A stretch of DNA of 18,371 nucleotides from a bacterium (GTDB lineage: Bacteria > ARS69): positions 1 through 18,371 of the forward strand of contig JALGZO010000690.1 in the NCBI GenBank assembly GCA_025774865.1, given 5' to 3'. The notes beneath the pieces are model-generated. The model saw nothing but the letters and a program-made list of their open reading frames with translations. It was not told the DNA's origin and ran no database searches. A program made the position numbers and the translations under genes. Positions 2,118-12,999 of the stretch are shown one piece after another. The stretch's first letter is position 1. Every line of letters begins with the position of its first letter.

Positions 2118-2504
2118 CTATGGCTGAACCGGGCACTTGAAGTCGTTGTCCGGCACGCGGGTGATCGTCACGTCGCCACTGGCCGCGGCGGCGAGCACGG
2201 CGTCCGCCGACGTGAGCAGGTAGGGAGTCACGTTCCAGACGACGCCGTGAAAGGCCCACTGGCCACCGTGATATTCGCGATCGCCCGGAGCGACGGCGAT
2301 CACCGCGAGCTGGCCCGCGGCTCCTCCATCGATCGCGTAGAGATCGTCACGCCCGCGATTCGGCATGGCCGCAGGAGGCACGACGGTCCGAACGATGGCT
2401 CCTTCGTAGTACAGGCGCCCGAAGGCCGGAGTCTGCGCCACAGCGTCTCCGGCGGTCGCGGCAAGCATGGTGAGGATTGAGAGAGCCAACAGGGTCGTTC
2501 TCAT
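2118..2504 (-). CDS. Small secreted protein of unknown function (128 aa)
   Basis: A 128-residue exported protein. The ATG at 2504 is chosen over a longer open frame because it has a strong AAGGAGACAG ribosome site just upstream and starts a clean signal peptide (MRTTLLALSILTMLAATAG, with probable cleavage after AVA). The mature part is about 105 residues, with no transmembrane segment, a single Cys near the C-terminus (FKCPVQP) and short conserved-looking blocks such as GRLYYEG, VVPPAAMPN and HGGQWAFHGVVWN. I recognise no catalytic motif and assign no function. It lies upstream of the subtilase in the same orientation, separated by about 200 nt with a hairpin, and diverges from the sigma-factor operon across about 150 nt. 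It could be a target of that sigma factor, but no shared promoter motif is evident. Confidence 0.85.
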   Translation of the reverse strand: MRTTLLALSILTMLAATAGDAVAQTPAFGRLYYEGAIVRTVVPPAAMPNRGRDDLYAIDGGAAGQLAVIAVAPGDREYHGGQWAFHGVVWNVTPYLLTSADAVLAAAASGDVTITRVPDNDFKCPVQP

Positions 2505-2655
2505 TACTGTCTCCTTCTCGTTGTTCGCTGGATGTCCGGCGCCTTGCCTGACGGGCCCTCTACGCGTAACGTCGCGGCGATGTGACGTGGTTTCTCGCCC
2601 CGCGAGATCCGGATTGGCGTGGGACAAGACGCCCCTTCGATCCGTAGAGGAAGAC

Positions 2656-3243
2656 GTGGATCAGCCGACGCGAGTATGCGGGCCACTCTCCCGCGAGACG
2701 CTGGAGGGCGCGCAACGCCGGGATCCCGAAGCACTCGGGGAGCTCTTCGAAAGGCACGCCGATCGGATCTACGATTTGGCGTACCGGCTCCTCGGTGAAC
2801 GAGCGGCGGCCGAAGACGCCATGCAGGAGGTCTTTCTCAAGATCTACCGGGGCGTACCGAAGCTCGACATTGAGCGAGATCCGGCGCCGTGGGTTCTTCG
2901 CGTCACTCAGAACGTCTGTCGCGACGTGTGGCGGTCGGCGCAGTACCGGGCGTCCCGGCGGTCGCGCCCGATCCACGAAGAAGTCGATAGTGGTCTTACG
3001 CTCGCGGCGCATTCTGCGGATCCCGAGCAAGCCATGCTGAAGTCCGAACGAGAACGACTCGTGCAGGAGGCGATCATGAGACTTCCACCCACTCTCCGCG
3101 TAGTGGTCGTCTTGCACGAGTACATGGGCCTACCGCACCAGGAGGTCGCGGACATCGTGGGCGCGAGCCACACCGCAGTGCGGAAACGTCATTCACGAGC
3201 TCTGGCCAAGCTCGGCCGGTTCCTGAAGGGGACCTTGTCATGA
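2656..3243 (+). CDS. ECF (sigma-70 family) RNA polymerase sigma factor, first module
   Basis: Extracytoplasmic-function sigma factor that directs RNA polymerase to alternative promoters. Region 2 covers about residues 27-94 (LFERHADRIYDLAYRLLG, then AEDAMQEVFLKIYR). Region 4 covers about 131-187 and has the helix-turn-helix MGLPHQEVADIVGASHTAVRKR. The open frame extends back to 2467, but that would overlap the divergent secreted-protein gene and add non-homologous sequence. I place the start at GTG 2656, preceded by AGAGGAAG at short spacing, giving 195 residues, normal for the family. The stop overlaps the next start as ATGA, so it is translationally coupled to the FecR-type protein. The exact start is less certain than the function. 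Confidence 0.9.
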   Translation: MDQPTRVCGPLSRETLEGAQRRDPEALGELFERHADRIYDLAYRLLGERAAAEDAMQEVFLKIYRGVPKLDIERDPAPWVLRVTQNVCRDVWRSAQYRASRRSRPIHEEVDSGLTLAAHSADPEQAMLKSERERLVQEAIMRLPPTLRVVVVLHEYMGLPHQEVADIVGASHTAVRKRHSRALAKLGRFLKGTLS

Positions 3244-4031
3244 GCCGAGATCGGGAAACCCGACGGTCCGAGCAGGAACGGGCGGGTGAGGCGGTCCGTG
3301 GTCTGACCCTCGCGGCGCCCGCCCCGCACTTCCGGGAACGGCTCAAGAGCGATTTCGTATCCGGTCGGCTGGCCGCGACGGAAGTCGTCCGGCGCCCCGC
3401 GCGACGCGTTCGGTGGTGGTGGGCACTGGCCCCGGCGGCCGCCGCCGTCCTGGCGATCGCGCTGCTCGCCCGGGGGCCCCGCGTTCCGGTCTGGACCGTG
3501 CGCGCCGCCTCGGCCGAGAGCGCCCAGGTGGACGGTCGCGAGCTCGCGCTGGAGCCCGGGCGGTCCCTCCCGGGCGGTGGGAAAATCCGCGTCACCGGAG
3601 GCTGGCTGGAGATGAACCTCGGCGACATGCTCGCGATGCAGATCAACGCGGGATCGGAAGTCGAGCTTCCCGCGCTGATCGAGCGCGACCCCGGGACTCT
3701 CGACGTTCATGTTGCCCGGGGAGAGGTCCTTTTTCTGACCGGCGAGACGTTTCCGGGAACGACCCTCAACGTCGAAACTCCGGAGGGGCGAATCGAGGTG
3801 ACCGGAACCGCATTCGCCGTCTACCGAGACGCCGACGTGACGTGCGTTTGTGTTCTGGAGGGCCGCGCGCGGGTGGGCGTCGGCCCCACCGACCTGGAGA
3901 TCATCGTGCCGGGTAAGCGGAAGGTCATGTTCAGCGACGGTCGGCCGCCGAAGATCCTCGACATCGAGCCGCAACATCGCGAAGGTGTCGAGGCATTCGT
4001 GCGACGCGCCCGATCCGAGGGAAAGAGCTGA
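3240..4031 (+). CDS. FecR-domain membrane anti-sigma/sigma regulator
   Basis: Probable regulator of the ECF sigma factor encoded just upstream. Residues 1-57 form a charged cytoplasmic segment that would bind sigma. One transmembrane helix spans about residues 58-77 (WWWALAPAAAAVLAIALLA). The extracytoplasmic part (about 85-235) has the FecR pattern: a glycine-rich beta segment (LPGGGKIRVTGGWLEM), then LDVHVARGEVLF, then VETPEGRIEVTGTAFAVY. In classical systems FecR relays a signal from a TonB-dependent receptor, but no such receptor is in this window. Many FecR-domain proteins elsewhere act simply as membrane anti-sigma factors. The start overlaps the sigma stop by 4 nt (ATGA), strong support for one transcription unit. 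Length is 263 residues. The external signal is unknown. Confidence 0.87.
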   Translation: MSRDRETRRSEQERAGEAVRGLTLAAPAPHFRERLKSDFVSGRLAATEVVRRPARRVRWWWALAPAAAAVLAIALLARGPRVPVWTVRAASAESAQVDGRELALEPGRSLPGGGKIRVTGGWLEMNLGDMLAMQINAGSEVELPALIERDPGTLDVHVARGEVLFLTGETFPGTTLNVETPEGRIEVTGTAFAVYRDADVTCVCVLEGRARVGVGPTDLEIIVPGKRKVMFSDGRPPKILDIEPQHREGVEAFVRRARSEGKS

Positions 4032-4044
4032 GGGGCGCCTGACG

Positions 4045-4458
4045 ATGACGGCGATGGAGAAATCCTTCCCGCGAGATTTCGCGGTCCTCGACGACATCCA
4101 CGCCTTCGTCCAGGAGTATCTGGCCGCGGAAGGCATCGAGCCCGCCAATTGCTACTGGGCCGACTTCATCATCGAGGAACTGTTCACCAACTTCGTCAAG
4201 TACAGCAAGGGCGGGCGGAGTGAGATCAAGGTCCGGCTCGACGCCGATGGCGATCAGATCGTCATTCGGGTCACGGACTTCGACGTCGAGGCTTTCGACA
4301 TCACGAAAGTACCGGAAGTCGATCTCGAGCAGTGGGCCACCGAGGGACGCGACGGCGGCCTCGGCATCCACCTCGTGAAGCAGATCGCCGACACCATCAC
4401 CTACGAGTACGAGGACCGGAACAGCATCGTCACGGTCAGGAAGCGCCTGGAGAACTGA
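4045..4458 (+). CDS. RsbW/SpoIIAB-like serine kinase or anti-sigma ATPase (HATPase_c_2)
   Basis: A 137-residue GHKL-fold ATPase of the partner-switching type, which binds or phosphorylates a STAS antagonist and may sequester a sigma factor or other partner. The N-box is visible as FIIEELFTNFVKY, with Glu45 and Asn49, and the G2 box as GRDGGLGIHLVKQIAD (about residues 101-116). The G1 box is degenerate: the usual Asp-x-Gly is Asp78-Phe-Asp80. ATP binding is therefore likely but not certain. The start is ATG 4045, with AGGGG about 10 nt upstream; ATG 4054 is an alternative. The gene lies 13 nt after the FecR-type gene and overlaps the STAS gene by 1 nt (TGATG), so all four genes from 2656 to 4742 look like one operon. 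Confidence 0.88.
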   Translation: MTAMEKSFPRDFAVLDDIHAFVQEYLAAEGIEPANCYWADFIIEELFTNFVKYSKGGRSEIKVRLDADGDQIVIRVTDFDVEAFDITKVPEVDLEQWATEGRDGGLGIHLVKQIADTITYEYEDRNSIVTVRKRLEN

Positions 4459-4742
4459 TGCTCGAGATCAAGGTCGAAGACGGCGGGATCGTGTCCCTGG
4501 CCGGGCGATTCGACGCTTCCCAGGCTGCGAACGCACGCGCCGCGCTCGAGCACGTCGAGCGTTCCGTCACGATCGACCTCGCGGATCTGGAGTACATCTC
4601 GAGTGCGGGAATCGGCATCCTCATGGGGACGTACCGGAGGCTGCACGCGGCCGGCGACACCATGAAGCTCGTGAACCTGAATCCCCGCATCCGGAACATC
4701 TTTCGACTCGCCGGTCTCGATAAGGTGCTCGTCATCGAGTGA
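4458..4742 (+). CDS. STAS-domain anti-sigma factor antagonist (RsbV/SpoIIAA-like)
   Basis: A single-domain 94-residue STAS protein, expected to be the partner and phosphorylation substrate of the ATPase encoded upstream. The hallmark segment is DLADLEYISSAGIGILMGTY (residues 40-59). Ser49 aligns with the phosphorylated Ser58 of Bacillus SpoIIAA, and the preceding Asp is replaced by Ser48, a common variant in this family. When unphosphorylated, such proteins bind the kinase and release its target. The start codon shares one base with the upstream stop, indicating translational coupling. The C-terminus (NPRIRNIFRLAGLDKVLVI) is typical of the family. It is the last gene of the operon; about 250 nt without a gene follow. 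Confidence 0.92.
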   Translation: MLEIKVEDGGIVSLAGRFDASQAANARAALEHVERSVTIDLADLEYISSAGIGILMGTYRRLHAAGDTMKLVNLNPRIRNIFRLAGLDKVLVIE

Positions 4743-4993: not shown

Positions 4994-5536
4994 ATGTCCG
5001 AGCCCACGGATCAAGCGCTCGTCGAAGGAACACTCGATGGTGACGAGCACGCGTTCGAACGGCTCGTCGACCGCTACGAAAGGACCCTCTTTCATGTCGC
5101 CTTCCGAATGGTCGGCGACTTCGAGGAGGCGCGGGACGTCACGCAGACGACCTTCGTGAAGGTCTACGAGAAGCTCGACCGTTTCGATCCGCGGTTCAAG
5201 TTCTTCAGCTGGCTCTTCAAGATCCTCGTGAACGAGTCACGGAACGCTCTCAAGAAGAGAAGGAATCACGAGCCGCTAGCCGACGATTTGATCTCACCAC
5301 GGAAGACACCCGACGACGTCGTGCATGAACGGCTACAGGGGGAGATGGTGCAGCGGGCGATCCTCGATCTGTCGATCGAACACCGTCAGGTGATTCTGCT
5401 CCGACACTTCGGGGAACTTTCGTACCGGGAAATGAGCTGGGCGCTCGACGTTCCCGAAAGGACCGTGAAGTCGCGTTTGTTCACGGCCCGCCGCCGTCTG
5501 TGTGACATTCTGACCGGACTGGGGGTCACCCATTGA
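4994..5536 (+). CDS. ECF (sigma-70 family) RNA polymerase sigma factor, second module
   Basis: A second ECF sigma factor, 180 residues. Region 2 lies at about residues 20-90 (FERLVDRYERTLFHVAFRMV, then ARDVTQTTFVKVYEKLDRF and FFSWLFKILVNESRNALKKR). Region 4 lies at about 116-170, with the helix-turn-helix LSYREMSWALDVPERTVKSR. The ATG at 4994 fits the usual N-terminus, although the frame is open further upstream and no strong ribosome site precedes this ATG. It resembles the RpoE/SigW-like group more closely than the first sigma factor here does. Its stop overlaps a TTG start for the next gene (TTGA), the standard arrangement with a cognate anti-sigma factor. Confidence 0.92.
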   Translation: MSEPTDQALVEGTLDGDEHAFERLVDRYERTLFHVAFRMVGDFEEARDVTQTTFVKVYEKLDRFDPRFKFFSWLFKILVNESRNALKKRRNHEPLADDLISPRKTPDDVVHERLQGEMVQRAILDLSIEHRQVILLRHFGELSYREMSWALDVPERTVKSRLFTARRRLCDILTGLGVTH

Positions 5537-6339
5537 CCGACGAACAGCTCGAGCTGATTCACCGCGCGATCGACGGAGAGACGACGGCCGAGGAGTCGGG
5601 ACGGCTCCGCGAGCTGCTCGCGGCCGACGAGGAAGCGCGGCGCTGCCACGACGAGCTCCGCGGTCTCACGCACCGTCTGAAGCACATCGAGCCCGTCGAC
5701 CCGCCGTCGGATCTGAGAGCGGACATTCTCCGGTCGATCCGCCGAGGCGTGCGCCCGGAACCGGGAGGAACCCGCGTCGGTGCCATTCGACGTCTCGTCG
5801 ACCTGCTTCGTCCGGGACACGCGTACGCATTCGCGACCGGCCTCGCCGCCGGGATCGTGCTGCTCGCGTTCTTGTCGGCGGATCAAATGCCCGAGCTGGA
5901 TGAATCGCTCGCGTCCGGAACGCTTCTGCGACCGGCGCCGAGCGGCCACGTCGAGACCCTGGACCGCGTGCAACTCGATTCGGTCGGAGCGCGAGGCCTG
6001 GTGGTGGCGCGGCGCGCCAACGGGACCGTGTGGCTCGACATCGACGTCGTCTCGGAGGAGGCCGTCGAGCTCGAACTCGAGCCGGGGGACGGTTCGTGGA
6101 GCCCACTCGGTTTCGAGCAATTGCAACCGGGCGCCGACGTGACGATGCTGGCAAACCGTCTCTCGGTCCGTCACCGGGGCGAGAATCACTATCGGATCGC
6201 ATTCGCGGAGTCGACGTCGCCGATCCGGGTCACGCTTCGCACGAGTCTCGGCGCGAAAGTCGAACGAGTCGTGAATACGACGGGGCCCGAAGGGCCGAAC
6301 AGTTCCGTTACCCGGAGCGCCACCCCTCCGGGTCCATGA
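5533..6339 (+). CDS. Single-pass membrane anti-sigma factor (putative), TTG start
   Basis: A 268-residue protein coupled to the ECF sigma gene by a 4-nt TTGA overlap. There is no ATG in frame until about codon 119, inside the post-membrane part, so TTG is the credible start. Residues 1-70 are helical and charged (LIHRAIDGETTAEESGRLRE), like the sigma-binding N-terminal domain of anti-sigma factors. The zinc motif Hx3CxxC of the ZAS group is absent; only a lone Cys-His occurs near residue 38. One transmembrane helix spans about 97-115 (YAFATGLAAGIVLLAFLSA). The remaining 150 residues are predicted outside the cytoplasm, rich in beta-type sequence, and match no domain I know. The role is inferred mainly from topology and context. 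Confidence 0.78.
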   Translation: MTDEQLELIHRAIDGETTAEESGRLRELLAADEEARRCHDELRGLTHRLKHIEPVDPPSDLRADILRSIRRGVRPEPGGTRVGAIRRLVDLLRPGHAYAFATGLAAGIVLLAFLSADQMPELDESLASGTLLRPAPSGHVETLDRVQLDSVGARGLVVARRANGTVWLDIDVVSEEAVELELEPGDGSWSPLGFEQLQPGADVTMLANRLSVRHRGENHYRIAFAESTSPIRVTLRTSLGAKVERVVNTTGPEGPNSSVTRSATPPGP

Positions 6340-6356: not shown

Positions 6357-6384
6357 GGAACAACCCAGTAGGTGGAGCAGCGCT
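6357..6384 (+). promoter_or_regulatory. Weak candidate ECF-type promoter before the repeat-protein gene
   Basis: GGAAC (6357-6361), the classic ECF -35 core, is followed after 19 nt by CGCT, a poor match to the usual CGTC -10 element and at longer than normal spacing. It lies in the 76-nt gap between the anti-sigma gene and the nonapeptide-repeat gene. The GGAAC also overlaps a GGAGGAA purine run, so it may be a chance match. Confidence 0.2.
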
Positions 6385-6415
6385 ACTCTAGCCAGGTTTC
6401 AAGAGGGAGGTAACC

Positions 6416-7246
6416 ATGACGAATCCATCGAGCTCCGGTGGCAAGAAGTTTCTGATCGGGGTGGGAATCGTAGCGGTGGCCGGAATCGTGTATTTCTCGG
6501 TCAACGGCATCACCACCCCGCAGGAGGGAGCCGAGGGAGCCATCGGTGCGGTCGAACGGTACCGAACGGATCAAATGTCCTCTGAGGACGTCATTCTGAA
6601 GGACCCCGAGTTCCAGGCGTGGATGCAGACCGACGAGTTTGACCGGTTGATCAAGGACGAAGCGTTCATCGAGGCTCTGGGCAGCCAGAATTTCGAGGCC
6701 GCGTTCGCGAACGAGGCGTTCAAGACGGCCGTGGCCAGCGATGAGTTCCGCGCGCAGCTCGGGAGCTCGTTGCGGTCGCGTGTCTTCGAAAACGAGCAAT
6801 TCAATGTGGCCCTCGAGGACGCGCAGTTCCGCCAGGCGATCGGCAGCCAGGCCTTCAAGGCCGCGGTCAAGAGCGCGGAGTTCGAGGCCGCGGTCGGCAG
6901 CGCGCAGTTCGACCAGGCCGCGCTGGGGAACCTGTTCCGGGGAATCCCGGTCGTTTACGACAACACGCACTTCAATGCGGCTCTCAAGAGCGCTGAGTTC
7001 GCGGCCGAACTGGCGACCTTGTACCGGGCGCAGAACGTCGTTTTCGAGAACGTGCATTTCAATGCGGCTTACGAGAGTGGGGCGTTCCGGGCCGCGATGA
7101 AGGATCGAGTGTTCCGGGCCGCCGTCGAGAGCTCGGCGCTTGAGGACGCGCTCCACAGCGACTATCTTCGGCAGTCGCTCGGCAACGCCCATTTCCAGGC
7201 GGCCGTGGTGAGCAACATTCCCATGGTGGAACACGTCTACGACTGA
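6416..7246 (+). CDS. Membrane-anchored nonapeptide-repeat protein, unrecognised family (276 aa)
   Basis: I do not recognise this family. Residues 12-30 form one hydrophobic segment (FLIGVGIVAVAGIVYFSV) after a short basic N-terminus. It is either an uncleaved anchor with the rest outside the cytoplasm or a poor signal peptide. From residue 62 to 264 the protein is a run of about 22 nine-residue units with consensus [G/K/E]-[S/D]-x-x-F-x-A-A-[V/L/I]. Phe is at position 5 in 18 of 22 units, and the period is broken only by a 3-residue insert (179-181) and a 2-residue insert (209-210). Examples are GSQAFKAAV, KSAEFEAAV and KDRVFRAAV. Ser or Asp before the Phe looks like a helix cap, suggesting a stack of short helices. 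The ATG has a strong GAGGGAGGT ribosome site. The gene follows the sigma/anti-sigma pair and ends at a strong terminator. Confidence 0.88.
   Translation: MTNPSSSGGKKFLIGVGIVAVAGIVYFSVNGITTPQEGAEGAIGAVERYRTDQMSSEDVILKDPEFQAWMQTDEFDRLIKDEAFIEALGSQNFEAAFANEAFKTAVASDEFRAQLGSSLRSRVFENEQFNVALEDAQFRQAIGSQAFKAAVKSAEFEAAVGSAQFDQAALGNLFRGIPVVYDNTHFNAALKSAEFAAELATLYRAQNVVFENVHFNAAYESGAFRAAMKDRVFRAAVESSALEDALHSDYLRQSLGNAHFQAAVVSNIPMVEHVYD
6599..7207 (+). repeat. In-frame array of about 22 degenerate 27-bp repeats
   Basis: This is the coding array for the nine-residue repeat. Each unit is 27 bp and carries a conserved TTC or TTT Phe codon in the middle and often ends in GCCGCGGTC or similar. Nucleotide identity between units is patchy, which points to old duplications kept under protein-level selection rather than recent slippage. 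The array keeps the reading frame throughout, with small insertions of 9 and 6 bp. Confidence 0.85.
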
Positions 7247-7330: not shown

Positions 7331-10300
7331 ATGTTCACCGGACCCTGTTTCCGCTCCACTTCGATGATCGCCGCGCGGGCGGTCACTCTCGGCGTCTGCT
7401 TCTTCGCCTCGCCCCCCGCTGCCCGCGCTCAGCTGCAGGCCCTCGAGACGGAGCACCTGCGACTCGTCTACGAGAACGCGACACTCTCCTACCTCGCTCC
7501 ACACGTGGCTCGGTGCTTCGAGAACTCCCTCCGCTTTCACCGGGAGCTCTTCGACTACGAACCATCCGAGAAGATCACGGTGATTCTGAACGACTTCGCG
7601 GACTTTGGACACGCGGCCGCCACCGCGACTCCGCGCAACGCCTTGCTCGTCAGCGTGGCTCCGATGAGTCTCGCGTACGAGACGTACCCATCGAACGAGC
7701 GCATGAACACCATGATGAACCACGAGCTCGTTCACATCGCGGCCCTCGATCGCGCCGCCGGCCGCGAGCGATTCTTCCGGGCCTTGTTCCAGGGCAAGGT
7801 CCAGGTCACGTCGGATCATCCGGAGACGATCGTCTACTCCTACCTGACGACGCCGCGCCGGGCGTCGCCGCGCTGGTACCACGAAGGCATCGCGGTCTTT
7901 CTGGAGACGTGGATGGCCGGGGGGCTCGGCCGCGCCCAGGGACCGTACGACGAGATGGTCTTCCGGTCGATGGTGCGCGACGGAAGTCACTTCTATGATC
8001 CGCTCGGGCTCGTCTCCGAAGGAACGAGGACCGACTTTCAGCAGGAAGCGAACTCCTACCTCTACGGAACGAGGTTCCAGAGCTATCTCGTTCACCGCTA
8101 CTCGCCGGAATCTCTGATCCAGTGGGTCGCTCGGACGGATGACACGAAGTCCCACTATGCCGCGCAATTCAAGCGCGCGTACGGGATGGGACTCGGGGAG
8201 GCCTGGAGCGATTGGATCGAATGGGAGCGCCAGTTTCAGGAGGAGAACCTGGCGTCCATCCGCCGGTACCCCACGACGCCGTATCGATCCGTCTCGACAC
8301 GACCGTTGGGCTCCGTGTCACGGACTCTCTGGGACCCCGAGAACGGAAAACTCTACGCCGCGTTGAATTACCCGGGGAAACTCGCGCATGTCGCGGCGAT
8401 CTCGGTTGAAGACGGTCGGATCCAGAGCCTCCGCGACGTGAAGGGTCCCGACATGCACACCGTCACGTCGCTCGCGTTCGACCCGGCCGGGGGCACGCTC
8501 TTCTACACGACCGACAACACGGCCTGGCGTGACCTCTGCGCGCTCGACCCGGCGACCGGCCGTCACGATATTCTGATGAAAGACGTGCGCGTCGGAGATC
8601 TCGCCTTCAACCGGGCCGACGATTCCCTCTGGGGCGTCCGCCACTACAACGGAATCTCCACGCTCGTGCGCATTCCGCCGCCCTATGACGAATGGGATCA
8701 GGTCTACTCCTGGCCCTATGGCGAGTTTCTGTACGACATCGATGTCTCGCCGGACGGGAGGTGGCTTTCCACTTCGGTCGGAGAGATCAACGGTCGTCAG
8801 AGCCTCCGCGTCCTGGATCTGGAAGCTCTCGCGGCCGGCGACACGACGGCGACGGCGACGTACGCCTTCAGCAACAACGCGATCCCTTCCAACTTCGTCT
8901 TCGCTCCCAACGGGCGCTACCTATACGGCAGCTCCTACTTCTCCGGCGTGTCGAATATCTTCCGCTACGACGCAGCCGCGGACTCGATGGATGCGGTCAC
9001 GAACGGTGAGACCGGGTGGTTCCGCCCGATTCCGATCGGCGGCGACTCGCTCATCGCGTTTCGGTATACGGGTGAGGGCTTCGTTCCCGCCCGGCTGGAG
9101 GCACTTCCGCTGGAGGACGTGAGCGCGGTGACCTTCCTCGGCGCTCGAATCGCGTCCGAGCATCAAGCCGTCCGGGAGTGGGTGGCGCCGTCACCGCTGA
9201 CCGTCGACCTCGAGGCCGCGACCACGTACTCCGGGCCCTACCGGAGCTGGCCCAACATCGGGCTCGCGTCCGCAGTTCCCATCGTGGAGGGGTACAAGGA
9301 CGTGCCTGCGTACGGTCTGGCGTTCGCGCTCTCCGATCCGGTCTTCATGAACCGGATCGACTTGGCCCTCTCCTACTCACCGGACGGCCGGGTCGGTGAC
9401 GACGAGCGCGCGCACATCCAGCTCGACTACCATCGATGGAACTTCACGAGCTTCTTCACTCTCAACGATGCCGACTTCTACGACCTGTTCGGTCCCACGA
9501 AGAGGAGCCGCAAAGGTTACGCCATCGGAATTCAATACCGGCGAATCCTCCTCTACGACGAACCCCGGCACTGGGACCTCCACTTCGATCTCACCCGCTA
9601 CTGGGGTTTGGAGCGGCTCCCGAACTACCAGAACGTGATCACTTCGTTCGGGGACATGCTCTCCGGATCCTTGCGCGTCGGGTATCGCAACCTCGGGTTC
9701 TCGCTCGGCGCGGTCGACTACGAGAAGGGAGTGCAGGGGAACGTCGCGGCGCACGCGAATTTGGTCGAAGGGATGGTGTTCCCGAGCCTGCAAGGGGACC
9801 TGGACCTGGGCTTTCCACTTCCGCTGCACCATTCCTCTCTGTGGCTGCGGGGCTCCGCCGGACTCGCGACCCAGGACCGGGACGAGCCGCTCGCCAACTT
9901 CTTCTTCGGAGGCTTCGGAAACAACTGGGTCGATCACCTCGAACCGAAGCGTTATCGAAAGAACTACAGCTTCCCGGGAGCCGAGCTGAACGAGATCGCC
10001 GGCACGAACTACGGGAGGCTGCTCGTCGAGTGGAACCTGCCCCCGCTCCGGTTCCGGCGCGTGGGCACAGCCGACTTCTACGCGACGTGGGCCCGGCTCG
10101 CCCTGTTCTCGGCCGGACTCCTCACGAACTTGGATCACGAGGAGAGCCGCCGCGAGTTGGCCACGGCCGGCGCCCAGCTGGATATCCGGTTCAAGCTGCT
10201 GTCGAACCTGAACATGACGCTGTCCGGCGGATACGCCGTCGCCGTCGAGGACGGCCGGCGGCACGGCGACGAGGTCATGGTCTCCCTCAAGATTCTATGA
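7331..10300 (+). CDS. Zinc metalloprotease (HExxH gluzincin) fused to a propeller and outer-membrane beta-barrel
   Basis: A 989-residue multidomain exported protein. An N-terminal signal sequence (about residues 12-33, ending PAARAQ) precedes a peptidase-MA-like domain. His131-Glu132-Leu-Val-His135 is the zinc-binding motif, and Glu185 in RWYHEGIAVFLE is the likely third ligand, the gluzincin pattern. Residues of about 330-620 read as TolB/WD-like propeller blades (LAFDPAGGTLFYTTD, IDVSPDGRWLSTS, FVFAPNGRYLYGSS). Residues of about 640-989 are aromatic, alternating beta sequence with many short turns, ending MVSLKIL, like a surface-antigen/BamA-type barrel. The model is an outer-membrane protein with a periplasmic or surface protease. 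ATG 7331 is the listed start; ATG 7364 would give a tighter signal peptide, but neither has a strong ribosome site. The stop overlaps the PrsW start (ATGA). Confidence 0.88.
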   Translation: MFTGPCFRSTSMIAARAVTLGVCFFASPPAARAQLQALETEHLRLVYENATLSYLAPHVARCFENSLRFHRELFDYEPSEKITVILNDFADFGHAAATATPRNALLVSVAPMSLAYETYPSNERMNTMMNHELVHIAALDRAAGRERFFRALFQGKVQVTSDHPETIVYSYLTTPRRASPRWYHEGIAVFLETWMAGGLGRAQGPYDEMVFRSMVRDGSHFYDPLGLVSEGTRTDFQQEANSYLYGTRFQSYLVHRYSPESLIQWVARTDDTKSHYAAQFKRAYGMGLGEAWSDWIEWERQFQEENLASIRRYPTTPYRSVSTRPLGSVSRTLWDPENGKLYAALNYPGKLAHVAAISVEDGRIQSLRDVKGPDMHTVTSLAFDPAGGTLFYTTDNTAWRDLCALDPATGRHDILMKDVRVGDLAFNRADDSLWGVRHYNGISTLVRIPPPYDEWDQVYSWPYGEFLYDIDVSPDGRWLSTSVGEINGRQSLRVLDLEALAAGDTTATATYAFSNNAIPSNFVFAPNGRYLYGSSYFSGVSNIFRYDAAADSMDAVTNGETGWFRPIPIGGDSLIAFRYTGEGFVPARLEALPLEDVSAVTFLGARIASEHQAVREWVAPSPLTVDLEAATTYSGPYRSWPNIGLASAVPIVEGYKDVPAYGLAFALSDPVFMNRIDLALSYSPDGRVGDDERAHIQLDYHRWNFTSFFTLNDADFYDLFGPTKRSRKGYAIGIQYRRILLYDEPRHWDLHFDLTRYWGLERLPNYQNVITSFGDMLSGSLRVGYRNLGFSLGAVDYEKGVQGNVAAHANLVEGMVFPSLQGDLDLGFPLPLHHSSLWLRGSAGLATQDRDEPLANFFFGGFGNNWVDHLEPKRYRKNYSFPGAELNEIAGTNYGRLLVEWNLPPLRFRRVGTADFYATWARLALFSAGLLTNLDHEESRRELATAGAQLDIRFKLLSNLNMTLSGGYAVAVEDGRRHGDEVMVSLKIL

Positions 10301-11307
10301 CCGAGCTTCTCCGCATTCCGGTGAGCCTGTTACCGGTTCTCATCTTCCTTTCCGTCCTCGTCGTCCTGGACAGCTACAAGCTCGTGTCGCTTCGGGTGAT
10401 CGTCCGATCGATCGGCGCAGGCTGCGTCGCCGCCGTCGCGTGCCTGTACCTCAACGGTTGGCTGGTCGGTGTCTTGGACACGAGCCACTCGACGTTCACC
10501 CGATACCTCGCGCCACCGATCGAGGAGGCGATGAAGTGCTTGTTCGTCATCTACCTCATCCGAACCCACCGCGTCGGATTCTCCGTCGACGCCGCAATTC
10601 ACGGGTTCGCGGTCGGCACGGGTTTCGCCCTCGTGGAGAACGCCTATTTCCTCCGGGCGCTCGACGCGTCGAGCATCTTCCTCTGGTTCGTCCGGGGTTT
10701 CGGGACCGCGATTCTGCACGGATCGACGACCGCGATCTTCGCCATCCTCTCGAAGACCCTGACCGATCGCCATTCGCCGGCGGCGATCGCGGCCTACCTC
10801 CCCGGATTGGGGCTGGCCGCTGGCTTGCACTCGCTCTACAACCACTTCGTCCTCCCTCCCGTGATCGCGACCGCGGCCCTGCTCGCGGTTCTGCCGTTCG
10901 TGATCTCTCTGGTCTTCACGCGAAGTGAGAAGGCGACCCGCCGCTGGCTCGGCATGGGGTTCGACGCGGACGTCGAGCTCCTCGAGCTCATCGAGTCGGG
11001 CGAAATCCAGGAAAGCCGAATCGGGCGCTACCTGGAATCGCTCCGGAGCCGGTTTCCCCCGGCGGTCGTCGCGGACATGCTCTGCTTTCTGCAGATTCAC
11101 CACGAGCTGGCCGTGCGCGCGAAGGGGATGCTGATCGCACACGAGGCGGGGTTCGATCTGCCCCCCGGCCCCGGCGTGCGCGCGAACCTGGAGGAGCTCC
11201 GCTACCTCGAGAAGTCGATCGGCAAGACCGGGAAGCTCGCGCTCATGCCCTTCCTCGGTACGAAGAGCCGGGATCTGTGGCAGGTGTACATGCTCGGCGA
11301 GTCCTGA
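10297..11307 (+). CDS. PrsW-family intramembrane protease
   Basis: A 336-residue polytopic membrane protein with about seven hydrophobic helices in residues 8-207. The family's conserved residues are visible: Glu76-Glu77-x-x-Lys80 (PPIEEAMK), Glu114-Asn115 within GTGFALVENAYF, His141 (AILHGSTTAIFA) and His178/His183 (LHSLYNHF). In Bacillus subtilis, PrsW makes the site-1 cut in the membrane anti-sigma RsiW to release SigW. Here two membrane anti-sigma-type proteins are encoded within 8 kb upstream, so a similar role is possible but inferred. Residues 208-336 form a cytoplasmic helical extension (DADVELLELIESGEIQESR) beyond the catalytic core. The start overlaps the protease-barrel stop by 4 nt, so the two are cotranslated. 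The 3' end faces the minus-strand UnbV gene across 9 nt. Confidence 0.9.
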   Translation: MTELLRIPVSLLPVLIFLSVLVVLDSYKLVSLRVIVRSIGAGCVAAVACLYLNGWLVGVLDTSHSTFTRYLAPPIEEAMKCLFVIYLIRTHRVGFSVDAAIHGFAVGTGFALVENAYFLRALDASSIFLWFVRGFGTAILHGSTTAIFAILSKTLTDRHSPAAIAAYLPGLGLAAGLHSLYNHFVLPPVIATAALLAVLPFVISLVFTRSEKATRRWLGMGFDADVELLELIESGEIQESRIGRYLESLRSRFPPAVVADMLCFLQIHHELAVRAKGMLIAHEAGFDLPPGPGVRANLEELRYLEKSIGKTGKLALMPFLGTKSRDLWQVYMLGES

Positions 11308-11316
11308 AACGAGGCG

Positions 11317-12999
11317 TCACCTATCCTCTCCCTCCCCCCGGCGCAGGAAGACCGCGCGGTTCCCCTCGAAGTCCCCGAACGACTCTTCGTAGCCATCCAC
11401 CCAGCGCACGCGCACGTCGGTCACTCCCGTCGCGTCTCCGAGACCGAGGTGCACGCGCGGGTCGTTGGCCGCGGCGTAGCTGTAGGCACTCACCGCGTCG
11501 CGCCGGACCCGCCGGCTGCCGGTCGTGGCGGTCACCGTCGCGCCCAGGGCATCCCTTCCGCTCCTCTCCAGGACGCGGAACGAGATCCACCCGCCTCGGT
11601 CCCTCACGACGTTCTCGAGCATTTGCACGGGGCCGTCCCGGTTGACGACGACCACGTCGACGCCGCCGTCGCCGTCGATGTCGCCGAAAGCCGCCGCCCT
11701 CGACGTCAGGATGTGCGCCTGGGCCGTACCACCCGGCGGATCCACCACCGCGAAGCCACCGCCGGCCGTGCCCCGGAACAGCAGGTTCGGCTCCGCGTAG
11801 GCATCGTCGACCGATGGCTCCGGCGAAAGCGCCACGCGACCGTTCGCTTGGTAAAGGTCGAGTGATCCGTCGTTGTCGAAGTCGGCGAACCCGACTCCGA
11901 AGCGAGTGTGCGGACGGCTGGCCGAGCCCAACCCCCGGACCGCCGTGCGGTCGGAGAAGTACTCTCCGTCGTTGGTGTAGAACGAATCCGATTCGTGGCT
12001 GAGATTCACCACGAGGATATCGAGGTCTCCGTCGTCATCCAGGTCCGCGGTCGCCACTCCCATCCCGGCCTTCGCCTTGCCGTGTTCGTCGAGAGCGCAG
12101 CCGCGGAGCAGGGCCTCGTCGACGAAACGGCCGTCACCCTGATTCAGCCACAACTGGTTCATCATCGTGTCGTTCGCCACGAACACGTCGATCCGACCGT
12201 CGCCGTCGTAGTCACCGCAACCGATTCCCAGACCGTTACCGAACGCCGTGCGTAGCCCGGCCGGCTCGGTGACATCCGTGAACGTTCCGTCTCCTTCGTT
12301 CCGGAACAGGACGTCGCCAGCGGGCGCTCCGTAGTTGGTGGGGAGGCAGTAGTCGCGCACGCCGAAATCGTTGTAGCAGTCCATCTCGCTCTCGGGGGTC
12401 CAGTTGACGTAGTTGACCACCCAGAGGTCCAGGTCGCCGTCCGCGTCGTGATCGAGGAACGCCGCGCTCGTCCCCCAGGCCGAATGACCGGTTCCCGAGC
12501 GATCCGTCACGTCCGTGAACTTCCCGCTGCCGTCGTTCCTCAGGAGCGTGTTGCGGCCGACGTTCGTCACGTAGAGATCTGTGTCGCCGTCGCCGTCGTA
12601 GTCTCCCGCGGCCACCCCGACTCCGTACCGGGGGTCCTCCGCCCCGCTCCCCACTGTCACATCCGTGAATCGGAATCCGCCGTCGTTGCGATACAACCGG
12701 TTCGGGAGCTCCTCGCCGGGTGCGGAGAAAACGGGTCCCCCCTGAACGAGGTAGAGATCGAGATCGTCGTCGCCGTCCATGTCGAAGAGAGCACACCCGC
12801 CGAGGATGATCTCCGGAAACAGAAGGCTCTCCCGGTGCCCGGACCGGCACTGAAAGTCGATGCCGGCAGCGGCCGAGACCTCCTCGAACCAGGGGACAGC
12901 GGCGGCGCGCTCCCCCCCTTTCGAAGGCGAGGGATCGCGCCCGCTCTCGCAGGCCGGCAGCGCCATCAGGAGTCCGGCCAGGAAATACCGGAGCCTCAT
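11317..12999 (-). CDS. FG-GAP/VCBS-repeat lipoprotein with C-terminal ASPIC/UnbV domain
   Basis: A 560-residue predicted lipoprotein. The signal ends in the lipobox LPAC with Cys17; the next residue is Glu, not Asp, consistent with outer-membrane sorting. The body is a seven-bladed-type propeller made of FG-GAP/VCBS repeats carrying calcium-binding loops: DMDGDDDLDLYLV, DYDGDGDTDLYVT, DHDADGDLDLWVV, DYDGDGRIDVFVA, DLDDDGDLDILVV, DFDNDGSLDLYQ and DIDGDGGVDVVVV. The C-terminal 80 residues are the ASPIC/UnbV module (ALGATVTATTGSRRVRRD, then HLGLGDATGVTDVRVRWVDG). The ATG overlaps the TPR gene's stop (ATGA), which fixes the start. Function is unknown; the family is usually linked to surface binding or assembly. 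The open frame continues far upstream inside the TPR gene, but that part is a shadow. Confidence 0.92.
   Translation of the reverse strand: MRLRYFLAGLLMALPACESGRDPSPSKGGERAAAVPWFEEVSAAAGIDFQCRSGHRESLLFPEIILGGCALFDMDGDDDLDLYLVQGGPVFSAPGEELPNRLYRNDGGFRFTDVTVGSGAEDPRYGVGVAAGDYDGDGDTDLYVTNVGRNTLLRNDGSGKFTDVTDRSGTGHSAWGTSAAFLDHDADGDLDLWVVNYVNWTPESEMDCYNDFGVRDYCLPTNYGAPAGDVLFRNEGDGTFTDVTEPAGLRTAFGNGLGIGCGDYDGDGRIDVFVANDTMMNQLWLNQGDGRFVDEALLRGCALDEHGKAKAGMGVATADLDDDGDLDILVVNLSHESDSFYTNDGEYFSDRTAVRGLGSASRPHTRFGVGFADFDNDGSLDLYQANGRVALSPEPSVDDAYAEPNLLFRGTAGGGFAVVDPPGGTAQAHILTSRAAAFGDIDGDGGVDVVVVNRDGPVQMLENVVRDRGGWISFRVLERSGRDALGATVTATTGSRRVRRDAVSAYSYAAANDPRVHLGLGDATGVTDVRVRWVDGYEESFGDFEGNRAVFLRRGEGEDR

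Follow-up and report, generated by a model that had tools for sequence, protein, structure and literature searches.

At positions 6416 to 7246 of the 18,371-nucleotide stretch of bacterial DNA analysed here (the window) lies the gene of P0001, a membrane-anchored protein made of tandem nonapeptides. It belongs to an apparently undescribed family that joins a transmembrane (TM) anchor, a juxtamembrane module and a repeat array. The preliminary description of this DNA, made from the one stretch, could not see that the repeat is part of a multi-phylum family and of a conserved locus, in which the zincin/propeller/barrel protein encoded downstream appears to be the obligate genetic partner of the repeat protein. 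The orphan repeat has thereby become a system open to experiment: seven genes in a conserved locus, two of which encode a strict pair of proteins. We give an even chance to the reading in which P0001, anchored in the inner membrane, forms the periplasmic arm of a conserved trans-envelope locus read by ECF/PrsW signalling.

The nonapeptide protein P0001

The gene follows a plausible ribosome site (GGGAGGTAACCATG) and has these features:

6416..7246, + strand: membrane-anchored tandem nonapeptide protein (P0001), 276 aa, an open reading frame with translation
6449..6502, + strand: predicted TM anchor, residues 12-29 (hydropathy maximum 2.46; TM aligned in all family members)
6521..6598, + strand: conserved juxtamembrane module QEGAEGAIGAVERYRTDQMSSEDVIL, residues 36-61 (family consensus GTIGGVKKAEKYxxxQMSxxDVxL)
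6599..7207, + strand: nonapeptide array, residues 62-264 (18 strong units plus degenerate ones)

The protein thus starts with a short, predicted cytoplasmic N-terminus, continues through the TM segment (~12-29), where hydropathy agrees with the anchor proposed earlier, the module (~36-61) and the array, and ends in a C-tail (265-276).

The tandem nonapeptides of the preliminary description are real. Self-similarity at lag 9 was +0.52 (BLOSUM62, residues 56-270), about 12 SD above shuffled sequence and above the maximum of 2000 shuffles (best lag of each shuffle: mean -0.39, SD 0.07, maximum 0.02), with further peaks at lags 18 and 27, and 13 of the 21 Phe past residue 60 fall in one phase modulo 9. 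An iterative nine-column profile found 18 strong units between residues 62 and 264, all of them with S, N, D or T at position 2 and a hydrophobic residue at position 9, 17 with Phe-5 and 14 with Ala-8. Together with the degenerate units, this makes the earlier count of about 22 units, 18 of them with Phe-5, a fair one. The claim that residues 62-264 parse almost without gaps was slightly generous, since the array is degenerate or irregular at 116-124, 170-181 (LGNLFRGIPVVY), 200-210 (ATLYRAQNVVF) and 247-255. Irregular joints were seen in three stretches (VFENEQFNVAL, VVYDNTHFNAAL and VVFENVHFNAAY), suggesting that the array has a weak higher-order pattern in addition.

At the DNA level the units share 53% identity, against 32% in codon-shuffled sequence, TRF reports just 2.9 copies, and Ala-8 is encoded by a mixture of GCG, GCC and GCT (6/5/3). 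Since the DNA units have diverged and Ala-8 is written with mixed codons, the nonapeptide pattern is held at the protein level. These data bear on the idea that the repeats are mainly a by-product of 27-bp tandem duplication, that is a coding minisatellite with little function of its own, which we regard as very improbable. Relatives do have similar DNA units (29.5 copies with a 72% match in L043) and the unit sequence turns over between lineages, but the units of the window are old, their pattern persists through synonymous change at Ala-8, and the array goes with the module in essentially all members, other unit lengths taking its place with no loss of an array. An antisense open frame of 283 aa also lies over the gene (window 6383-7234, - strand); similar antisense frames occur in relatives, and the frame appears to be a side effect of GC-rich codon use.

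The repeat family and the fold of its unit

P0001 itself had no Pfam match (hmmscan, E<=1) and no PDB match, and its NCBIfam and PHROG matches were all sub-threshold (TPR_END_plus of NCBIfam, at E=0.27, was far under the cut-off). As a lone query it retrieved no relative among the genome contigs, the plasmids, the 60 relatives or its own five-genome phylum. The statement that it belongs to no recognised family therefore holds for the protein taken singly and fails if it is read as a lone oddity, since relatives exist in several phyla. The exclusion of pentapeptide, TPR, Sel1 and HEAT repeats was also correct; these and ALF had no Pfam profile match in P0001 (E<=1) or in the scanned relatives (E<=0.1).

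Finding the relatives required a 27-residue, three-unit repeat profile, which in a search of 386 genomes returned one true relative, which has 347 aa, about 30 units of the type ANASFREAL and an N-terminus laid out like that of P0001. P0001 and the relative P0003 align over 262 residues with 31% identity (E=3e-31). The family is present in 16 of 82 KSB1 genomes, a count that leaves out a 17th match (G439) as a different protein, and has members in Calditrichia, Aminicenantes and other uncultured lineages; no relatives were found in viral contigs. The G439 protein (L035, C136:6886-7269) is a sugar-binding domain fused to a MalF-like permease, with a nonapeptide array of the IDSLGFKAF type between the domains and without the GTIG module.

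The common part of the family consists of the TM anchor, 9-14 residues, the motif GTIGGVKKAEKYxxxQMSxxDVxL and then, usually, three nonapeptides. P0001 fits this module in the alignment (TM anchor followed by G[TA]IGxV...Y/F..xxQ[MI]..xDV.L), and the family profile, of whose 12 rows the window sequence is one, matches it in its own genome with E=3.6e-30. By sequence pattern it also carries the family trait of an array of short capped units, predicted to be helical. Past the common part the arrays differ, with units of 9 residues in most members, 11 in five genomes and 12 in three, and more rarely of 22 (13+9), in the second copy of genome G194, or 8, in a 1135-aa protein. Conservation thus extends to the general build, a long array of short units that are capped, amphipathic and probably helical, and not to the unit sequence.

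Several members have unusual arrangements. The second G194 copy (L044, contig C30, locus 8928-9929) is made of 22-residue units (MADSRYAVAWSNLLADDKFREL) and has its own partner gene. The 1135-aa member (L123, G062:C1:2034000-2052000, locus 8435-11857), from a single-contig genome, mixes 8-residue VIPALERQ units with longer blocks and has a Ser/Thr kinase gene close by and no ECF gene nearby. At a third locus (L124, G082:C181, 6339-8473) three module proteins of 207-216 aa with degenerate repeats stand in tandem, followed by the partner gene, and an ECF gene is absent within 18 kb. In G436 the assembly breaks inside an array that apparently resumes on another contig (L056 and L107, contigs C170 and C186), so array lengths from draft genomes are unreliable.

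To characterise the unit we pooled 223 distinct nonapeptides from nine family members. Of these, 86% have S, N or D at position 2, 96% have L, F, I or M at position 5 and 76% have Ala at position 8, and position 9 is aliphatic or aromatic; of the 75 Pro, 73 stand at positions 3-4, immediately following the S, N or D. The polar cap followed by Pro, the hydrophobic positions 5 and 9 and Ala-8 are together characteristic of a helix that begins anew in each unit. AlphaFold2 modelled P0001 with a pLDDT of 39 without relatives and a mean of 50 (arrays ~60) with ten other rows, and both of these low-confidence runs placed one 7-residue helix in each unit (64-70, 73-79, 82-88, 91-98 and so on). The array is thus likely to be a chain of micro-helices, as the models suggest, and the earlier preference for short helices over one continuous helix stands: in a continuous helix the Phe would alternate between faces, and the Pro at positions 3-4 of many units speaks against it. 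A beta-solenoid, suggested by the F-x-A-x-V alternation, was rejected because the composition rich in A, E, K, Q and R, the Pro after S/N/D and both models favour helix.

The nearest known kind of unit, judged from sequence, would be the STI1/DP domain. Of all families, STI1-HOP_DP (PF17830) alone was matched by the majority of the relatives (6 of 9). Single 58-aa pieces reached E-values as low as 6e-5, and scores ran from 18.9 bits (P0003) to 56.2 bits (the highly repetitive L061) around a gathering cut-off of 29.1; in P0001 it has no match at E<=1. The PDB matches of the relatives were weak, namely 2llw (E=0.035) and the ADRM1 domain. Compared with the five-helix hand of PF17830, the P0001 models show micro-helices at low pLDDT, and a Foldseek search with the low-confidence model, whose packing is unreliable, returned no match and nothing usable. 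A new repeat fold, which the preliminary description had raised, is not demonstrated by these data: the three-dimensional packing has no confidence, and the relatives weakly resemble STI1/HOP DP.

The partner protein and its signalling neighbourhood

The genes around the repeat gene in the window are:

4054..4458, + strand: RsbW-like HATPase (PF13581 E=6e-17; upstream position conserved)
4458..4742, + strand: STAS anti-anti-sigma-like protein (PF13466 E=4e-15)
4994..5536, + strand: ECF sigma factor (Pfam Sigma70_r2 3e-16, r4_2 6e-12)
5533..6339, + strand: anti-sigma factor with one TM segment and G[TSA][ILM] 12-19 residues beyond it (NCBIfam NF052375 E=1.7e-7, below the curated cut-off)
7331..10300, + strand: partner, predicted outer-membrane protein of ~1000 aa (signal peptide; zincin motif HELVH/WYHEG; propeller of PD40-like type; probable barrel at the C-terminus, with SLKIL as its last residues)
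10297..11307, + strand: PrsW-family intramembrane protease (PF13367 E=2.6e-18; EExxK and FxxxEN motifs conserved)

The partner is the next gene downstream on the same strand in 22 of the 22 loci with enough flank, and at L124 it sits after the last of the three tandem copies. Its Pfam matches (PD40 and Peptidase_MA_2) are weak. Partner proteins are of about 1000 aa and have a signal peptide, the gluzincin-type HExxH/WYxEG motif, in which HExxH is kept, repeats resembling those of a propeller and a C-terminal end of the kind usual in outer-membrane barrels; a barrel is therefore probable from the sequences. Repeat gene and partner gene occur in the same 6 of 386 diverse genomes and nowhere else (Fisher 2e-13). 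In KSB1, 15 of the 16 genomes with the repeat gene encode a partner that is 50% identical or more, exceptions all lying at contig ends. At L099 (G437:C118, locus 8162-8434) an open frame of 17-residue repeats (SISKDDAAQLNELGHIL) that runs off the contig lies 5' of a distant partner homologue (31% identical), and may be a different repeat protein in the same place.

With the HExxH protease encoded next door, we considered the array as a chaperone-like or substrate-like periplasmic tail, whose STI1-type micro-helices would hold unfolded outer-membrane proteins or serve as bait for the zincin, cleavage reporting protease activity. The similarity of relatives to STI1-HOP_DP and to 2llw is consistent with this, and STI1 domains bind hydrophobic helices (PMC8010706). 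However, arrays with units of 11 or 12 residues do not resemble STI1 in sequence and P0001 lacks a Pfam match, and we consider this reading improbable.

ECF sigma factor, TM anti-sigma factor and PrsW all lie in one locus in the window. Elsewhere the ECF and anti-sigma genes are upstream in about 20 loci, mostly with the RsbW-like and STAS genes, and PrsW is downstream in most loci, upstream in G457 and G458 and on the opposite strand in G176. ECF/anti-sigma genes were not detected near five loci (L044, L067, L069, L123 and L124), suggesting that repeat gene and partner gene make up the core, which the sigma module often accompanies; no PrsW gene was found at L044, L047 and L049, all three with flanking sequence, and given these absences sigma signalling may be an add-on. 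A second, distinct pair of an ECF sigma and a FecR-domain anti-sigma factor is encoded just 5' of the RsbW-like gene (window 2467-4031).

The main rival to the signalling reading builds on this pattern. Repeat protein and partner would form a structural or enzymatic outer-membrane machine processed by PrsW, with the ECF module merely controlling its expression and the array acting as an inter-membrane scaffold or tether, not a sensor. The partner adjoins the repeat gene in all loci, including the second pair of G194, which has neither ECF nor PrsW nearby, and a tether needs no conserved unit sequence, in line with units of 8, 9, 11, 12 and 13+9 residues. We hold this rival to be possible but doubtful: the length of complete proteins varies between about 200 and 1135 aa, contrary to a fixed-length ruler (a fixed periplasmic ruler was rejected because lengths vary more than fivefold), and two further observations point to a direct role in the switch.

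The first is a fusion. At L055, in one MAG, a single open frame right after an ECF gene combines an anti-sigma cytoplasmic domain, a TM segment, the module and an array of 11-residue units; its anti-sigma domain is 53% identical over 79 aa to the neighbour's anti-sigma factor, and the locus has no separate one. This is direct evidence that the part of an anti-sigma factor outside the cytoplasm can be an array of this kind; provided that the anti-sigma domain has its usual cytoplasmic location, the array would lie in the periplasm. The fusion suggests, at the level of sequence, that the N-terminus is inside and the repeats outside. The second is a shared motif. The separate anti-sigma factors carry G[TSA][ILMVA] 12-19 residues past the TM segment in 18 of 18 cases (shuffled mean 1.3), mirroring the GTIG of the repeat proteins; since they are mutually related, these are not 18 independent events. 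Common descent of the two juxtamembrane segments was not accepted, because their similarity (hhalign 15%, 9 columns) is too short as proof, and the natural reading would be a shared protease or partner site.

Proposed role and comparison with known systems

The signalling reading can be set out in steps. The N-terminus of the repeat protein would lie inside and the repeats in the periplasm, each nonapeptide probably forming a two-turn helix capped by S, N or D at position 2. The array would then be a flexible necklace of amphipathic micro-helices of the STI1/DP kind, with Phe/Leu-5, Ala-8 and Leu-9 exposed, and could bind hydrophobic segments, the periplasmic part of the outer-membrane partner, or the partner's clients. 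Depending on whether the array is free or occupied, PrsW would or would not cut in the juxtamembrane region shared by repeat protein and anti-sigma factor (G-T/A-I/M), and the cut would free the ECF sigma factor. PrsW, the ECF sigma/anti-sigma pair and the RsbW/STAS switch seem to accompany the repeat-partner pair in most lineages.

More tentatively, the locus could represent an undescribed and widespread trans-envelope sensor of uncultured phyla, in which a necklace of variable length, made of micro-helices of about nine residues, spans the periplasm and connects an ECF/anti-sigma/PrsW switch to the outer-membrane zincin/propeller/barrel protein; its unit would be exceptionally short and could differ in length between lineages without a change of role. 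Little is known of envelope signalling in the host lineages (KSB1, Calditrichia, Aminicenantes and others). The family also offers a natural series of short-helix arrays, with units of 8 to 13 residues and a common conserved anchor, which is useful for asking what the smallest possible helical repeat is and whether function rests on unit sequence or merely on capped amphipathic helices.

At the level of the unit, the closest comparison is with STI1/HOP DP (PF17830; 2llw). DP2 is built from five amphipathic helices that together make a hydrophobic, flexible hand (PMC8010706). Its helices and those predicted for the nonapeptides are alike in being short, capped and amphipathic, with the pattern [D/S/N]-P-x-hydrophobic-x-x-hydrophobic-hydrophobic. 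DP is however a single five-helix domain of a cytosolic co-chaperone, whereas the repeat family has 20-70 units, a predicted periplasmic location and a strict 9-residue period. The alpha-helical stalk repeats of polymorphic toxins, ALF among them, are a second point of comparison, and an association with PrsW peptidases has been described for these toxins (PMC3482391). The repeat family differs in having no ALF Pfam match and no C-terminal effector domain, and a toxin stalk was rejected for P0001, whose chain stops 12 residues after the last unit.

At the level of the locus, the ECF sigma factor, the TM anti-sigma factor, the PrsW-family protease and an extra extracytoplasmic component recall the RsiW/PrsW and RseA/RseB/DegS systems, PrsW being the site-1 protease for RsiW (PMC4598750). 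In contrast to these, the present locus also contains genes for a membrane protein of tandem repeats, for the zincin/propeller/barrel protein and for an RsbW/STAS pair, and its proteolysis steps are putative. The HATPase and STAS pair upstream in most loci resembles the sigma-B type partner switch (RsbW/RsbV), but here it adjoins an ECF sigma factor with its own TM anti-sigma factor. The locus is undescribed in the open-access literature that we searched: its signalling parts are of known kinds, and the repeat protein, its pairing with the partner and its interchangeable unit lengths appear to be new.
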